A stretch of 64,000 nt of DNA from Fibrobacterota bacterium (GCA_029557215.1 JAKPQQ010000215.1:1-64000); one strand, 5' to 3'. Counted from the stretch's first letter, positions 201 through 56,432 are shown. Numbers and translations: made by a program. Notes: generated from the sequence alone by a model not told the origin.

Positions 201-220
201 GGACGCAAAATTTTGCGTCC
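201..220. repeat. Perfect 20-bp palindrome upstream of structured RNA copy A
   Basis: GGACGCAAAATTTTGCGTCC is a perfect inverted repeat lying 12 bp upstream of the conserved block of the RNA element at 233-504. It could be a terminator-like hairpin of a gene left of the window or an insertion target. The second RNA copy also has a hairpin at its 5' edge, with unrelated sequence. Confidence 0.6.
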
Positions 221-232
221 CCACGGATGGGC

Positions 233-504
233 GCCCGCTATCCCGCGGCGCGAGCCGCCGAAAATTGTCGGGGGTCCAGGGGGGGGAGCATATTCGCAGG
301 ACCGCCCACCGGTCAACGCCACGGCAGTGGCGTTGGATGAAAACGCCAGCAGGCGGTTCGAGAGGGCGAGTCCCCCTGGTGCCTGGTTCCAAGGACCCGG
401 CAGGAGGGTCCTTGGCCCGCCGGGGTTCACGGGGGCGTCGGGTTACGCCCCCGTGGAAAGCTCGCCACCCGCATAGGGTGGCTGTCCAAAGAGCTGACCT
501 TCAG
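233..504 (+). ncRNA. Structured RNA element, copy A (HEARO/omega-RNA-like)
   Basis: This stretch is roughly 85 percent identical to 3478-3750 and folds into the same series of hairpins. A GCGGC stem with a GCGA tetraloop lies at 245-258. A long-range stem pairs 299-306 with 352-359. A CAACGCCAC stem with a GGCA loop spans 314-335. Further stems are CCAAGGACCC/GGGTCCTTGG at 389-415, CACGGGGGCGT/ACGCCCCCGTG at 428-455, GCCACCC/GGGTGGC at 464-482 and CTGA/TCAG at 494-504. Several pairs differ from copy B in a compensatory way (A-U to C-G at 321/328, A-U to G-C at 497/501), which is direct evidence for selection on RNA structure. Size, hairpin density and occurrence as dispersed copies resemble HEARO (omega-RNA), the guide RNA of IscB elements; that identification comes from memory of the family, not a search. 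No IscB gene is near. Strand is assigned by assuming the GNRA loop and the order of the HEARO-like stems. Confidence 0.75.
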
Positions 505-882
505 GGCGAGGCACGGTTCGGCGCTGCTCACCGCAAGTGCCTGCGCCTTCGCCCTTCGAGACGGCCTTCGGCCTCCTCAGGACGAACGGCCATATTGGGT
601 CGCCCCCACGAAACAACAGCGAGGCCTCGCCACCCGCCAGGGTGGCTGAAGGGGTCCGGGGTGGAACCCCGGAGAGGGGGTAGCGAAGGATCCCGGCCGT
701 GCGGTCCGTCCGTAGGGGCGACCGCTACGGCATCAAAAAGCTGGCGGGGCACCCGGATGGGTGCCAAGCTGCCTCGCCCTTCCAGGACCACAACCGCACG
801 GCCGGAGCCGCAGCGAGGGGGACGCCTCCCCATTTTTTCTTCTTTCATAAACGACTTCAAATCCAGAATCGGGAGCACGCAC
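505..882. other. Non-coding stretch with several hairpins before the deacetylase gene
   Basis: No supported gene. Visible structures are a GCCACCC-GCCA-GGGTGGC hairpin near 629-646, a CCGGGG/CCCCGG hairpin near 657-673, and a TTCGAGACGG-type palindrome near 557-590 resembling intergenic repeats seen in many bacteria. A short GC hairpin followed by a run of six T at about 834-839 may end a transcript running from the RNA element. The in-frame open stretch upstream of the deacetylase start is GC-bias artefact. Confidence 0.5.
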
Positions 883-2118
883 ATGACGCGGATCGCCTCT
901 ATCCTCCAAACCTCGTTGTTGGGCGCCGCCGCGGTGTTGGCCGGGCCGGTGACGACCGTTCCGTGGAACGGCCACAAGGGCGCGGTCACCTTCACGTACG
1001 ACGATGCTTGCGCCTCGCAGATCGCCAACGTCTTCCCGTCCCTGGAATCGCGCAAGATCCACGCGACGTTCTTCGTGCCCGGCGGATACAACTTCAACTC
1101 CACCCTGGATAGCTGGAAGCAGGCCGCCAAGGCCGGCCACGAGGTCGCCAACCACACGGCTTCTCACGCCGATCTTTCGGGACTCGATTCGACGAAGATC
1201 GAGCAGGAGATCCGCGGCCAGGATTCGGCCATCAAGGCCCTGGATCCATCGGTGGAATCGGTCACCCTGGCCTACCCGTTCTGCAACACCAGTCCCCTGG
1301 TGAACCGGATCGCCAACCGCCACAACATCATCGCCCGCACCTGCGGCGGCAACGCCCAGTTCGAATGGACCACCAAGCCGTCGGAATGGATGAGCATGAC
1401 CTCGTTCATCCTGCAGGACGACGCGACAACCGCCACCGCCTTGACGGAAATCGACAACGCCGCCAAGAACGGCACCTGGTTCGTGACCCTGAACCACGGC
1501 GTGGGCGGCGACTGGATGTTCATCTCCACCGAACAGATGAACAGCCTGTTCGATCGCGCGATCCAGAACGGCGCATGGGTGGGGACCTACCAGGAGATCG
1601 CCGCCTACTGGCGCGCATCCAAGACCATGGACACCGTGTCGGCCGCCTCCGGAGCCGCCAACTGGAACCTGAAGTGGACCTCGCCGCATCCCAAGATGCC
1701 CAGGAGCGTGCCGCTGCGGGTCAAGCTGGATCCAAGCGTTTTCGGAACCGCACCCATCGTCAGCCAGGGTTCCCAGCGGATCACCCCTCAAACCGACGGC
1801 TCGTTCGTGATCGACTTCATGCGGCTGGAAATGATGGTCGCCAAGGCCGGATCCAACATCAAGGCCAAAGCGCGCGCGCATGCATCGCTCACGACCACCC
1901 GCGACGGCTGGAAGATCCTGGGGCTCCAGGAGCCATCGGCCACCTACACGGTACGCGCCGCGTCGGGTGAATCGCTCGCCTCCGGGGTTGTGGCCATGTC
2001 GACCAACGGACTGATCCCGTTTCCCGAGCGCAACGCCACCGAAGCGCGGTTCCTGGAACTGCGATCGATCGACACCGGCCTGCAACTCTGGAGTTCGGCT
2101 CTGCCCCTGGCGCGGTAG
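883..2118 (+). CDS. Secreted polysaccharide deacetylase (NodB/CE4-like)
   Basis: 411 residues. A signal peptide is visible at residues 1-20. The NodB homology domain follows: TYDD at 38-41 (the TFDD motif, catalytic Asp40 and metal Asp41), HTASH at 91-95 (metal His91 and His95), AYPF at 130-133 and LNH at 203-205. Family members remove acetyl groups from xylan, chitin or peptidoglycan at the cell surface or outside the cell. Residues from about 240 on look like a beta-rich accessory domain with no motif I recognise. I chose the ATG at 883 because it opens a clean signal peptide; upstream codons are low-complexity. The next gene on the same strand, 84 bp on, encodes an expansin, so the pair plausibly acts together on plant cell wall. 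The exact substrate cannot be told. Confidence 0.88.
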   Translation: MTRIASILQTSLLGAAAVLAGPVTTVPWNGHKGAVTFTYDDACASQIANVFPSLESRKIHATFFVPGGYNFNSTLDSWKQAAKAGHEVANHTASHADLSGLDSTKIEQEIRGQDSAIKALDPSVESVTLAYPFCNTSPLVNRIANRHNIIARTCGGNAQFEWTTKPSEWMSMTSFILQDDATTATALTEIDNAAKNGTWFVTLNHGVGGDWMFISTEQMNSLFDRAIQNGAWVGTYQEIAAYWRASKTMDTVSAASGAANWNLKWTSPHPKMPRSVPLRVKLDPSVFGTAPIVSQGSQRITPQTDGSFVIDFMRLEMMVAKAGSNIKAKARAHASLTTTRDGWKILGLQEPSATYTVRAASGESLASGVVAMSTNGLIPFPERNATEARFLELRSIDTGLQLWSSALPLAR

Positions 2119-2202
2119 GGCGCGAAGAACACCGCCCCCCCGCAGGATCCAACTCCCTGCGCAGAAGACGCGAACCCGTCGGTTTGACGATCTTTCCATC
2201 CC

Positions 2203-3447
2203 ATGAAGATTTCGCGCTTTTTCCCGACACTGGTCGCTCTGGCCGTCGCGCCGCTTTCGGCCATGAACGAAGGCATGGCCACCCACTTCCAGGGCGTGGG
2301 CTACCCCTACGGCGCCTGCGGCGTCTCCGACGAAGTGGCGGCCACCGATGGCGCGATGGACACGCTCACCGGCCAAGGGAATCCGTTCGACTACGTGGCC
2401 TTGAACGTGTTCGACACCCCCAAGCGCTACGACATGCCGGCCGCCCGCCCGATGAAGGGAGCCGACACCGTGCTCATCGGAGCCTACGACAACGGACGCA
2501 ACTGCGGCCGCTGGATCCGGTTCGAACTGGGCGACACCTGCGACGGCGCCAACGACGGAGCCGCCGGCAAGGAGTTCTGCAGGGGCGGGACGGGCTGGCA
2601 TCCCAACGCCTACACGGGATCAGGCGGCTACGCGATCGTGTTCGACCAGTGCACCGACGGCAACGCCTGGTGCCGCGATTCCAAATGGCATCTTGACCTT
2701 CACACGCCCATCCTGGGAAGGCTGCGCAAGGATGGACAACTTCTGCCACCCATGGCCTGGCCCGTGCTGGACGCTTCGGGCAAACCGCAGGCCGACGCCA
2801 ACAACCCCTGGTCGATCTTCTACCAGGTGTCGGGATTCCTGAACCCCAAGATCTCCTGGGAGTTCGTTCCGGCCCCCAACTACCAGGGCGAACCGCGATT
2901 CTACTTCAGCGTCGATTCCAAATCCTGGTACTACCGCGTGATCGTGACGCACCTCGAGAACGGGATCCACGGCGTGGAACAGCTGGTGGGAACCGAATGG
3001 AAGCCCGCCCGGATGGAAGGCGACATGGGACAACTCTGGATCCTCCCCGACCCATCAACAAAAACCGTCACCCTGAGGATCACCGACGCCCACGACAAGC
3101 CGGTGATGGCCGGAAGGACCTGGACCATGGACTTCCCGACCACCTGCGGAACCGTGTGCACCAAACCCGCCACCCCTGCCGAAAACGTGGTCGGCAAAGG
3201 AGGCGAAGCCGCGTCCGCGACCGCTCGCCCGGCTGCCGGAAAGCTCGTCCGGATCGGGAACAGGCTGATGTTCCCCGGACAAGGACCGGATCGGCAAGCC
3301 ACCTGGATCTCGCCGAACGGAACACGGATCCCGATGGCGATCCACCAAGGCATGGCCGACATCCCCCGACTCGCACCCGGCGCCTGGACCCTGGCCTGGA
3401 AGACCCCGGACGGCTCCGCCCATCGATCCCACCTGATCGTACCGTAA
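2203..3447 (+). CDS. Two-domain expansin-like protein
   Basis: 414 residues with a signal peptide (1-20). Residues 21-172 match the expansin double-psi beta-barrel: an ATHF start, a GACG motif at 37-40, Cys-rich spacing, and HLDL at 163-166 matching the HFDL motif of plant expansins. Residues about 215-322 match the expansin second domain: FYFSVDSKSWYYRVIV aligns with the plant pattern around NLVLVTNV, followed by the GTEW and DMGQLW positions. Expansins loosen cellulose/xyloglucan networks without hydrolysis. A further ~70-residue C-terminal segment (345-414), with ISPNG and ending LIVP, resembles the tails of the GH43 and GH5 enzymes nearby and may be a secretion or anchoring domain. It follows the deacetylase gene in the same direction; the structured RNA begins 30 bp after its stop. 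Confidence 0.82.
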   Translation: MKISRFFPTLVALAVAPLSAMNEGMATHFQGVGYPYGACGVSDEVAATDGAMDTLTGQGNPFDYVALNVFDTPKRYDMPAARPMKGADTVLIGAYDNGRNCGRWIRFELGDTCDGANDGAAGKEFCRGGTGWHPNAYTGSGGYAIVFDQCTDGNAWCRDSKWHLDLHTPILGRLRKDGQLLPPMAWPVLDASGKPQADANNPWSIFYQVSGFLNPKISWEFVPAPNYQGEPRFYFSVDSKSWYYRVIVTHLENGIHGVEQLVGTEWKPARMEGDMGQLWILPDPSTKTVTLRITDAHDKPVMAGRTWTMDFPTTCGTVCTKPATPAENVVGKGGEAASATARPAAGKLVRIGNRLMFPGQGPDRQATWISPNGTRIPMAIHQGMADIPRLAPGAWTLAWKTPDGSAHRSHLIVP

Positions 3448-3457
3448 AACCCACCCC

Positions 3458-3478
3458 CATTCCGCCGAAGGCGGAATG
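3458..3478 (+). terminator. Hairpin after the expansin gene, abutting RNA copy B
   Basis: CATTCCGCC (3458-3466) pairs with GGCGGAATG (3470-3478) across a GAA loop, 11 bp after the expansin stop. There is no T run, so a terminator role is uncertain. It abuts the first conserved base of the RNA element and could instead mark the insertion target. Confidence 0.45.
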
Positions 3479-3750
3479 CCCGCTGACCCGCGGCGCGAGC
3501 CGCCAAAAATTGTCGGGGATTCCAAAGGGGCGAGCATATTCGCAGGACCGTCCAGCGTCCAACGCCCCGGCAGGGGCGTTGGGTGGAAACCCCAGTGGGC
3601 GGTCCGAGAGGGCGAGTCCCCTTTGGTGCCTGGATCCAAGGACCCGGCATGAGGGTCCTTGGCCCGCCGGGGTTCACGGGGGCGTCGGGCCACGCCCCCG
3701 TGGAAGGCTCGCCACCCGATAGGGTGGCAGTTCAAAGAGCTGGCTTCCAG
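3478..3750 (+). ncRNA. Structured RNA element, copy B (HEARO/omega-RNA-like)
   Basis: Second copy of the element at 233-504. Equivalent stems: GCGGC-GCGA-GCCGC at 3490-3503; long-range GGACCGTCC (3545-3553) with GGGCGGTCC (3597-3605); CCAACGCCCC-GGCA-GGGGCGTTGG at 3559-3582; CCAAGGACCC/GGGTCCTTGG at 3636-3662; CACGGGGGCGT/ACGCCCCCGTG at 3675-3702; GCCACCC-GATA-GGGTGGC at 3711-3728; CTGG-CTT-CCAG at 3740-3750. Differences from copy A fall mainly in loops or occur as paired changes that keep the stems. The 100 bp from 3751 to the next gene show nothing further. Confidence 0.75.
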
Positions 3751-3852: not shown

Positions 3853-5316
3853 ATGCGGGTTCTGTTGACGGGCGCGAACGGCTACATCGGCAAACGTCTG
3901 CTTCCCTTGCTGGTGCGGGCGGGACACGAAGTCGTGTGCTGCGTGCGCGACCGACGGCGGTTCCCCTCCGAGGGGATCTACGCCCACCCCGCCGTCACGG
4001 TGCTGGAAATCGACTTCCTGAAAAAGCCGGCCCTGGACGCGACCATTCCCCGGATCGACGCGGCCTACTACCTGATCCATTCCATGAGCGACGCGAGCCG
4101 CGATTTCTGCGCCCTGGAGGAAGCTTCGGCGATCCATTTCCTGGAGCTGGCCAACCGCCTGGGAGTACGACAGATCCTGTACCTGGGAGGGATCGTCAAC
4201 GAAGCGCGATTGTCCCGGCATCTCCAGTCGCGCAGCAACGTGGATGCGATCCTCCGCTCGGGAGGCATCCCCGTCACGACCCTCAAGGCGGGCATCGTGG
4301 TGGGATCGGGAAGTTCGTCGTTCGAGATCATCCGCGACCTCGTCGAGAAGCTGCCGATCATGGTCACCCCCCGCTGGTTGAACACGCGCATCCAGCCCAT
4401 CGCCGTGCGCGACGTGCTGGAATTCCTTCTGCGCTGCCTGGGCGACCCGCGGTTCGCGGGCGGATCGTACGACATCGCAGGCCCCGACATCCTCACCTAC
4501 AAGCAGATGCTCCTGCAGTTCGCCGAGGTGCGCGGGCTCAAGCGCCGCATTTGGACAATCCCTGTCATGACGCCGCGGTTGTCCTCCTACTGGCTGTACT
4601 TCGTGACGTCGACGTCGTACAGGTTGGCCGTGAACCTGGTGAACAGCATGAAGGTGGAGGTGGTGGCGCGCCCCAACGACCTCGCCTCGCAACTGGGCAT
4701 CGCCACCATCCCCTACCGTCGGGCCGTCGAACTGGCCTTCGAGACCATCGAGCGCAACGGCGTGGTTTCCAGTTGGAAGGATTCCCGGGTTTCCAGCGGA
4801 TTCGGGGAATCGCTCATGGAGCGTGTGGTCGTCCCCCGGAACGGCTGCTACTTCGATCGCCGCATCAAGCCGATCGCGGGCGACACGTCCAAGGTCCTGG
4901 ACGCGATCTGGTCGATCGGCGGGGAGACGGGTTGGTACTACGGCGATTGGCTGTGGCGACTCCGAGGAATCATCGACAAGATGTTCGGTGGCGTCGGGTT
5001 GCGGCGAGGCCGGACCGATCCGCATCGGATCCGCACGGGCGACACCTTGGACTTCTGGCGTGTCCTGGCCGCCGACCGCGACGCGGGACGTCTGCTCCTG
5101 TACGCCGAGATGCGGCTGCCCGGCGAGGCCTGGCTGGAATTCCGGGTGGTCAAAGACCCCGGCGGCGATCGTCTGGAGCAATGCGCGACGTTCCGCCCCA
5201 AGGGCTTGTCGGGTCGGGCCTACTGGTACGCGGTCCTGCCGTTCCACCACTTCGTCTTCGAAGGAATGGCCCGCGGAATCCTGGAACGCGGGGCGGCTTC
5301 GCCCGCGAACGAGTGA
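3853..5316 (+). CDS. NAD(P)-binding SDR-family protein with DUF2867 domain
   Basis: 487 residues. The N-terminus carries the Rossmann fingerprint TGANGYIG (6-13) and the flow of an atypical SDR/NmrA-like fold up to about residue 300. YYLIHSM and YLGGIV segments sit where such proteins carry their active-site region. The C-terminal third resembles DUF2867 (the WYYGDWLWRLRG stretch). Fusions of this kind are common conserved proteins of unknown substrate, annotated as SDR family oxidoreductases. The start follows a GGGAGG ribosome binding site. The gene stands alone, with about 300 bp to the next gene. Confidence 0.8.
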   Translation: MRVLLTGANGYIGKRLLPLLVRAGHEVVCCVRDRRRFPSEGIYAHPAVTVLEIDFLKKPALDATIPRIDAAYYLIHSMSDASRDFCALEEASAIHFLELANRLGVRQILYLGGIVNEARLSRHLQSRSNVDAILRSGGIPVTTLKAGIVVGSGSSSFEIIRDLVEKLPIMVTPRWLNTRIQPIAVRDVLEFLLRCLGDPRFAGGSYDIAGPDILTYKQMLLQFAEVRGLKRRIWTIPVMTPRLSSYWLYFVTSTSYRLAVNLVNSMKVEVVARPNDLASQLGIATIPYRRAVELAFETIERNGVVSSWKDSRVSSGFGESLMERVVVPRNGCYFDRRIKPIAGDTSKVLDAIWSIGGETGWYYGDWLWRLRGIIDKMFGGVGLRRGRTDPHRIRTGDTLDFWRVLAADRDAGRLLLYAEMRLPGEAWLEFRVVKDPGGDRLEQCATFRPKGLSGRAYWYAVLPFHHFVFEGMARGILERGAASPANE

Positions 5317-5341: not shown

Positions 5342-5464
5342 GACCACCCCGTCCGGCTTCGCCGTCCACCCCTCCAAGGGAGGGGAATGAGCTGCAGAAA
5401 GCACCATAAGCGTCTTGTTCAATTCCCCTCCTGTGGAGGGGTACGCCGAAGGCGGGGGGTGGTT
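5342..5464. repeat. Inverted pair of GC-rich palindromic repeats
   Basis: The left arm at 5342-5388 is an imperfect inverse copy of the right arm at 5414-5464; the right arm is nearly identical to 28-79. Each arm contains its own CCCTCC/GGAGGG hairpin, so the pair can form a large cruciform between the SDR gene and the GH5 gene. The rest of 5317-5620 shows no gene. Confidence 0.65.
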
Positions 5465-5620
5465 TGCCCCTCGAACAGTTGAAGGGGTTCGCACAATCAC
5501 AGGTGATACAGCTACTCCGACTTGGAACGATGTTGCCCCATACGTTTGACCGGGCGAAACGGTAGATTGGATTCTTGACGAACGGTCCACAGCCGATCGA
5601 CCGAACCGAGGAAGCGAACC

Positions 5621-55589: not shown

Positions 55590-56432
55590 ATGGAGAAGAC
55601 CGGCCCGGATATCTTCCGCTACGCGGACTACCGCCAGTTCCTCAAGGATTGGTGGAGCTGGAAGAAGCGTTCGTCGCGCATCGCGTCATTCCGTTCCTTC
55701 GCCATGAAGGCGGGCACCGCCCCGAGCCTTCTCAAGGACATCATCGAAGGACGCCGGCGCCTGACCGCCGACACCGTCGTGAAGTTCACCCCGGCCTTGG
55801 GGCTGTCCGATCCCGAATCGTCCTACCTGGCCCTGCTGGCGCGGTTCGGGAACGCCCGCAACGTCGCGGAAAAGAACCACGCCTTCGCCGAAATGGCCAA
55901 GGTCCGGCGCAAGATGTTCCTCAAGTTCCTGCCTCCCGAGAAATACGCCCTGTGGACCACCTGGTACCACGCTTCCATTCGGGAATTGACGGCGCTGGAG
56001 GACTTCCAGGAAGATCCCGAATGGATCGCCCACCGGCTGGAACCACCCATCTCGGTCCGGCAAGCCAAGGACGCCCTGGCCCTGTTGATGCGCACGGGAC
56101 TCCTGCAACGCGACGATCGCGGTCGGTTGCGCCCGGCCGAACCCGCCGTCAGCACGGAATACGAAACGCCCAACCAGCTGGTGCGGCACTTCAACCAGGA
56201 GATGATCGGCTTGGCGCTCACGGCGCCCGATCGGTTCGAACCGTCCCAACGCGAAGTCGGAGGCCTCACCCTGGGGTTGTCGGCCGAATGCTACGACCGG
56301 ATCAAGGAACGGATCCGGATCTTCAAGGAGGAGATCCTCGCCATGGTGGTGGAAGACCCGCGCGGATCCGAAACGATCGCCCAGTTGAACATCCAGCTGT
56401 TCCCCCTCTCGCGCAAGGAGGTGGCGGCATGA
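55590..56432 (+). CDS. TIGR02147-family protein
   Basis: 280 residues. FRYADYRQFLKDWWSWKK at the start, then FRSFAMKAGTAPSLLKDIIEGRRRLT (a helix-turn-helix-like part), KYALWTTWYHASIREL, and a C-terminal QLNIQLFPLS are the marks of TIGR02147, a family expanded in Fibrobacter succinogenes and of unknown role. The HTH-like segment suggests DNA binding. It overlaps the small lipoprotein gene by 4 bp. The 163 bp before it show no gene; a TATGAT hexamer lies just before the start. Confidence 0.88.
   Translation: MEKTGPDIFRYADYRQFLKDWWSWKKRSSRIASFRSFAMKAGTAPSLLKDIIEGRRRLTADTVVKFTPALGLSDPESSYLALLARFGNARNVAEKNHAFAEMAKVRRKMFLKFLPPEKYALWTTWYHASIRELTALEDFQEDPEWIAHRLEPPISVRQAKDALALLMRTGLLQRDDRGRLRPAEPAVSTEYETPNQLVRHFNQEMIGLALTAPDRFEPSQREVGGLTLGLSAECYDRIKERIRIFKEEILAMVVEDPRGSETIAQLNIQLFPLSRKEVAA

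Follow-up and report, generated by a model that had tools for sequence, protein, structure and literature searches.

The 64,000-nucleotide stretch analysed here, referred to as the window, covers the initial 64 kb of contig C12 (JAKPQQ010000215.1) in the draft genome of a Fibrobacterota bacterium (GCA_029557215.1, here G000; 4.04 Mb, 318 contigs, 80.6% complete). It carries two direct copies of a structured element, at 233-504 and 3478-3750, both located in intergenic DNA. These repeats belong to a new, uncatalogued family of structured elements of about 270 nt, although the kinds to which such a family relates, orphan structured RNAs and dispersed repeats, are already known. The element has a defined fold on a defined strand, is conserved over two families of one phylum, is dispersed among unrelated genes with no constant neighbour, and occurs with two swappable types of apical arm. 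It is very probably a functional single-stranded fold. The chances are about even that it is a dispersed non-autonomous mobile element, probably mobilised in trans and recognised through its fold.

Fold and folding strand

The structure of the element is well supported. The ungapped blocks of the two window copies are 84-93% identical, at a spacing of about 3246, and both copies fold far better than their dinucleotide shuffles (z −5.6 for copy 1 and −6.1 for copy 2; 0 of 200 shuffles). For copy 2, the + strand folds better than its complement (z −6.1 versus −4.2). The parts of the two copies are listed below.

201..220, + strand: H0 of copy 1, perfect hairpin GGACGCAA-AATT-TTGCGTCC, about 25 nt 5′ of H1
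233..504, + strand: structured element copy 1 with type A apical arm, from repeat comparison, covariance model and folding against shuffles
245..258, + strand: H1 of copy 1, GCGGC-GCGA-GCCGC with a GNRA loop
276..379, + strand: apical arm P2/P3 of copy 1, internal loop conserved in sequence (..ATTCGCAGG / CCGAGAGGGCGA..)
380..415, + strand: P4 region of copy 1, hairpin 389-415; putative pseudoknot 1 between UGCC 380-383 and loop GGCA 399-402
414..455, + strand: P5 region of copy 1, hairpin 428-455; putative pseudoknot 2 between GGCCCG 414-419 and loop CGGGTT 439-444
464..482, + strand: P6 hairpin of copy 1, GCCACCC/GGGTGGC, at the same place in many copies, with a different stem sequence in some
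3458..3478, + strand: H0 of copy 2, CATTCCGCC-GAA-GGCGGAATG, 10 nt past the stop codon of the preceding gene
3478..3750, + strand: structured element copy 2 with type A apical arm, on the same evidence as copy 1
3490..3503, + strand: H1 of copy 2
3522..3626, + strand: apical arm P2/P3 of copy 2
3636..3662, + strand: P4 hairpin of copy 2, putative pseudoknot 1 in the loop
3675..3702, + strand: P5 hairpin of copy 2, putative pseudoknot 2 in the loop
3711..3728, + strand: P6 hairpin of copy 2

Covariation was counted over 17 copies from three genomes. Standard pairs fill 95.4% of the P2-P4 pair cells, compared with 82.4 ± 0.8 after shuffling, double-compensated cells number 77 against 22.0 ± 3.8, and pairs with double changes number 19 against 11.9, with the provisos that related copies inflate counts of this sort and that the alignment was fitted to the model. 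When the register is slid, paired cells drop to 31-56% in every register. Double changes are present in all four helices and between genomes. An earlier note on this DNA had proposed two direct copies of a large structured RNA with covarying stems, functional rather than a random repeat, and both proposals are borne out by the repeat identity, the folding and a covariation far above the shuffled and slid controls. The G-U and U-G cells (20) far exceed the A-C and C-A cells (3), which identifies the + strand as the folding strand; this excess alone does not distinguish RNA from single-stranded DNA.

The individual base pairs named in the earlier note can be placed in this fold. The compensatory change from A321-U328 to C3567-G3574 is genuine and falls within the inner P3 stem, while the long-range stem at 299-306 corresponds to outer P3, where the exchange of G-U for G-C is confirmed. 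For A497-U501 and G3743-C3747 the bases are as described, but they do not belong to the conserved fold, because the 4-bp mini-hairpin that they form is broken in the copies C310, C149 and C179. In most G000 copies, H1 has five base pairs and a GNRA loop; C9 has exchanged all five of them but kept the pairing (ACTAG-AGGG-CTGGT). The internal loop of the type A P2/P3 arm presents the conserved ATTCGCAGG on one side and CCGAGAG..CGA on the other, and the arm also has a 3′ bulge, AAA..CCAG.

Two pseudoknots may complete the structure. In the first, the P4 loop GGCAU/C can pair with a GUGCC strand that directly precedes P4; in G001, a second genome with copies, both sides are changed, to CGCAC and GUGCG respectively. 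In the second, the P5 loop CGGGY can pair with GCCCG in the segment that separates P4 from P5, with compensatory forms in C9 (GCGCC/GGCGC) and C23 (GCCGU/GCGGC). Both are supported but, with few independent changes read by inspection, not proven. In G075, the third copy-bearing genome, they are weak or shifted; C93 has a reduced pseudoknot 1, and C249a has lost pseudoknot 2. Another candidate, which would join the P3 loop to the strand after P2 as in the nexus of omega-RNA, was rejected on inspection, as it fits the G000 copies but not those of G001 or G075.

A coding role for the element is unlikely, because substitutions between the two window copies are not enriched at any codon position and other copies carry single-base indels. 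On the same grounds, coding sequence was discarded as an explanation of the repeats.

Copies, arm types and surroundings

A BLAST comparison of G000 with itself returned 33 matching pieces. A covariance model built from genomic copies, as the earlier note had suggested, revealed compensatory covariation across genomes. The first such model (R1, covering P2-P4, from 7 copies) gives 13 hits in G000, 12 over the entire model and 1 partial; the core hits in the window are 276-415 (156.8 bits) and 3522-3662 (160.2 bits). Besides the 12 essentially complete core copies, the genome carries partial and mosaic ones, on many contigs. Among 168 genomes of the phylum, R1 finds four diverged hits (E 5e-10 to 3e-8) in G001, the only genome of the genus besides G000, and one in G075, from another family (E 6.7e-11). 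None was found in the remaining 165 under strict filters, which weak matches may escape. A second model (R2, 17 copies) places true copies at 75 bits or more and all else at 33 bits or less, the tested copies being largely those that built it, and has no match at E ≤ 1 in the included loci from Bacteroidota and other phyla. Plasmid and phage searches returned no relatives of the element; in viral contigs, one pattern match was a coding region at 10 bits and two further patterns had no match.

The copies carry one of two apical-arm types, A or B, on one conserved base. Base identity is 0.892 between the types and 0.886 within them, whereas arm identity is 0.62 between and 0.79 within. Since the base is equally similar across types and the arm is not, the arms have been swapped, and this comparison of sequences points to exchange by recombination. 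The mosaic loci C120b, C249c and C107 have one variant in common: a palindromic element of about 160 bp (GGCTTCGATACAACC..GGTTGTATCGAAGCC; L147 ~1290-1460, L150 1-240, L156 1-90) stands in place of the arm and half of P4. Modular tails recur alone and in tandem (C90). At one contig end, a tail module of about 125 bp with the GCCACCC..GGGTGGC hairpin stands in tandem with the core absent (L157 1-400). In G001, a second hairpin-rich repeat family occurs near element copies (L128 ~998-1240, L132 ~1180-1400, L134 ~940-1150) and scores weakly with R1 and R2, at 23-33 bits.

By simple gene calls the copies are intergenic, and no gene family recurs beside them, in agreement with the earlier note, which had reported no partner gene in the window. 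Copies 94-97% identical occupy different gene contexts, and flanking proteins are hardly common to copies or genomes. For about 13 of the approximately 17 full copies with an identifiable 3′-side gene, that gene is on the opposite strand and has its 3′ end towards the element. This orientation bias is suggestive only (one-sided binomial p about 0.02-0.05 for 13 of 17 or 18, in a test chosen after seeing the data), and the window copies are exceptions to it. Of 14 own-genome copies examined, 10 have a perfect hairpin directly 5′ of H1, and the stems of these hairpins comprise several unrelated sequences; the kind found at copy 1 (GGACGCAAAATTTTGCGTCC) is also solitary at C157, C192 and C170. 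The similarity among the copies C149, C310 and C249a continues upstream for another 340 bp; in two of the three it stops at GTTAGGC/G, after which comes ACCCTCCGGGCGG.

Restriction-modification genes or candidate defence genes account for several of the neighbours. A lower-GC island (38-61%) at C249:1-10800 (L150 1-10800) includes three element copies among same-strand, foreign-looking genes (DUF3800, HSDR_N, HTH/ATPase and others). At a G001 copy that lacks H1, a transposase-like gene (L160 6396-7748) ends exactly at the 5′ end of the element. The interval between the window copies contains a polysaccharide deacetylase-like gene (883-2118) and one further gene (2203-3447). Copy 2 is followed by an NAD-binding epimerase-like gene (3853-5316), and a protein of the TIGR02147 family, a Fibrobacter-type paralogue family, is encoded at 55590-56432. 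A 52-bp repeat unrelated to the element occurs at 28-79 and 5414-5465 of the window (98% identical) and also near another copy (L015).

Possible mobility and competing explanations

We infer both the mobility of the element and a partner that would act on it. The + strand, as RNA or as single-stranded DNA, would fold into H1, the P2/P3 arm, the pseudoknotted hairpins P4 and P5, and P6. A protein encoded elsewhere would recognise this folded strand, perhaps via the conserved internal loop, and would put copies next to hairpins already present, usually facing a gene 3′ end. Group IIC introns insert next to hairpins in a fixed orientation, and the element would resemble them in both respects; it differs in that no reverse transcriptase is seen beside its copies, and no Rfam intron match, such as to group II domain V/VI, was obtained at the copies scanned. 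Several points weigh against a mobile element. No transposase, reverse transcriptase or recombinase is tied to it, the case includes no demonstrated target-site duplication or empty site, and the orientation bias is built on few copies and was tested post hoc. Two of the three genomes yielded no REP-type Y1 transposase. An elaborate fold kept over such distances also exceeds what most non-autonomous repeats display, and a cellular function is possible.

The same placement could arise in a chromosomal intergenic repeat of the BIME, BOX or ERIC type, spread mainly by recombination and acting in cis at transcript 3′ ends as a terminator, mRNA stabiliser or protein-binding site. Such families likewise consist of palindromic modules scattered mostly between genes, close to gene 3′ ends, and have modular tails. 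Most copies of the element lie between genes near a gene 3′ end, its tails recur alone and in tandem, as noted for C90, and the genome has other small palindromic repeats. Nevertheless, most copies fold on the strand antisense to the adjacent gene, and a pattern scan found no terminator-like site at either window copy. The fold is far more elaborate than in BIME/REP, BOX or ERIC, with compensation across families and swappable arms, and its two putative pseudoknots and conserved internal loop are more than terminators or BIMEs need. This explanation is possible but unlikely. REP/RAYT elements were rejected as a general account: a Y1 (RAYT/IS200-type) transposase is present in G000 but was not found in G001 and G075, both of which have copies.

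A recombination site folded from one strand is also found in integrons, and the element might be a large attC-like site, recognised by the integrase as a folded strand and marking cassette ends. G000 encodes an integron-integrase homologue at C305:3509-4795 (L178), whose TIGR02249 score of about 261 bits falls just under the curated cut-off of 265; an attI-like GTTAGGC core follows at 4924, and the contig ends in repeats just after. G075 has a probable integrase (split match), and G001 only Xer-like hits. The GTTAGGC core with a further 20-38 bp recurs near C149 and C249a and in decayed form near C310, and a near-identical junction adjoins the integrase homologue at C305. AttC-like palindromes (CACATAATGCGAAATTTTGCGTATT..) ending in GTTAGGC/G and ACCCTCCGGGCGG stand near three element copies as integron-like cassette junctions (L148:3838, L150:7855 and L146 ~8136, the core being decayed at L146). 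As with attC, most copies lie 3′ of a gene whose antisense strand folds, some are near cassette junctions, and several neighbours look foreign. However, the core is about 400 bp 5′ of the element, at three copies only, and lies beside a separate attC-like palindrome, so the element is near attC and is not attC itself, an identity that was therefore discarded. No R′/R″ core (GTTRRRY) bounds the element, most copies have no core nearby, and G001 has four copies yet only the Xer-like hits. The element is much larger than attC and its pseudoknots are unlike it, which leaves an attC-like site improbable.

Slightly more doubtful is an independent trans-acting cellular non-coding RNA, of the class of ornate RNAs, amplified in this lineage. 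The elaborate fold, kept in three genomes with an internal loop conserved in sequence, is what such an RNA would present, and a large conserved bacterial fold is shared with the orphan RNAs GOLLD, ROOL and OLE (PMC12286853). The element differs from these in being smaller and dispersed in a dozen copies, and Rfam yields no homology. Its many copies, some mosaic or damaged, the gene neighbours that differ in each genome, and a pattern scan with no evident promoter in the window all argue against this explanation.

The least probable explanation, and a very unlikely one, is a stand-alone guide RNA of the omega-RNA (HEARO) type, serving IscB, TnpB or another RNA-guided nuclease encoded elsewhere; the earlier note had likened the repeats to omega-RNA and suggested that they could serve a protein encoded elsewhere. 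The likeness consists of a size of 200-270 nt, several hairpins, a pseudoknot (two in the element, if both form), multiple copies and an intergenic position without an adjacent protein. In omega-RNA, a 5′ guide and a guide-adaptor hairpin are combined with a three-way nexus and with a pseudoknot in which a loop pairs downstream (PMC9640706). In the element, by contrast, the 5′ side is mostly palindrome, the P2/P3 arm is linear with no three-way nexus, and the proposed pseudoknots join the P4 and P5 loops to upstream strands. Most copies have no free copy-specific 5′ guide beside an adaptor hairpin; a palindromic hairpin occupies that place in 10 of 14 own-genome copies. Rfam, including the HEARO model RF02033, has no relevant match on the window copies at E ≤ 10 and only weak irrelevant ones, outside the elements, at diverged homologous loci. 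RF02033 is without a match in G000 at E ≤ 10 and in the 168 phylum genomes, and the IscB RRXRR domain PF14239 stays below cut-off in all 168; because control genomes gave no match either, the absence of HEARO and IscB is likely rather than proven. The TnpB domain PF07282 is not over cut-off in G000, a genome 80.6% complete. About 65% of the 5′ untranslated regions of HEARO nucleases match RF02033 (PMC9755519), so a missing Rfam match is by itself insufficient to dismiss a diverged omega-RNA; greater weight falls on the lack of the protein and of the guide.

Meaning of the family

The element is absent from Rfam and has a complex, well-supported fold, and its natural variants, namely the arm types, mosaics and diverged homologues, are directly testable. 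A bolder possibility, itself doubtful, is a new class of mobile RNA: non-coding, pseudoknotted, with exchangeable recognition arms, placed in trans by an enzyme beside nucleic-acid hairpins and partly riding in integron cassettes. If mobility in trans is true, a structured RNA would be added to the short list of known means by which bacterial elements move while encoding no protein of their own.

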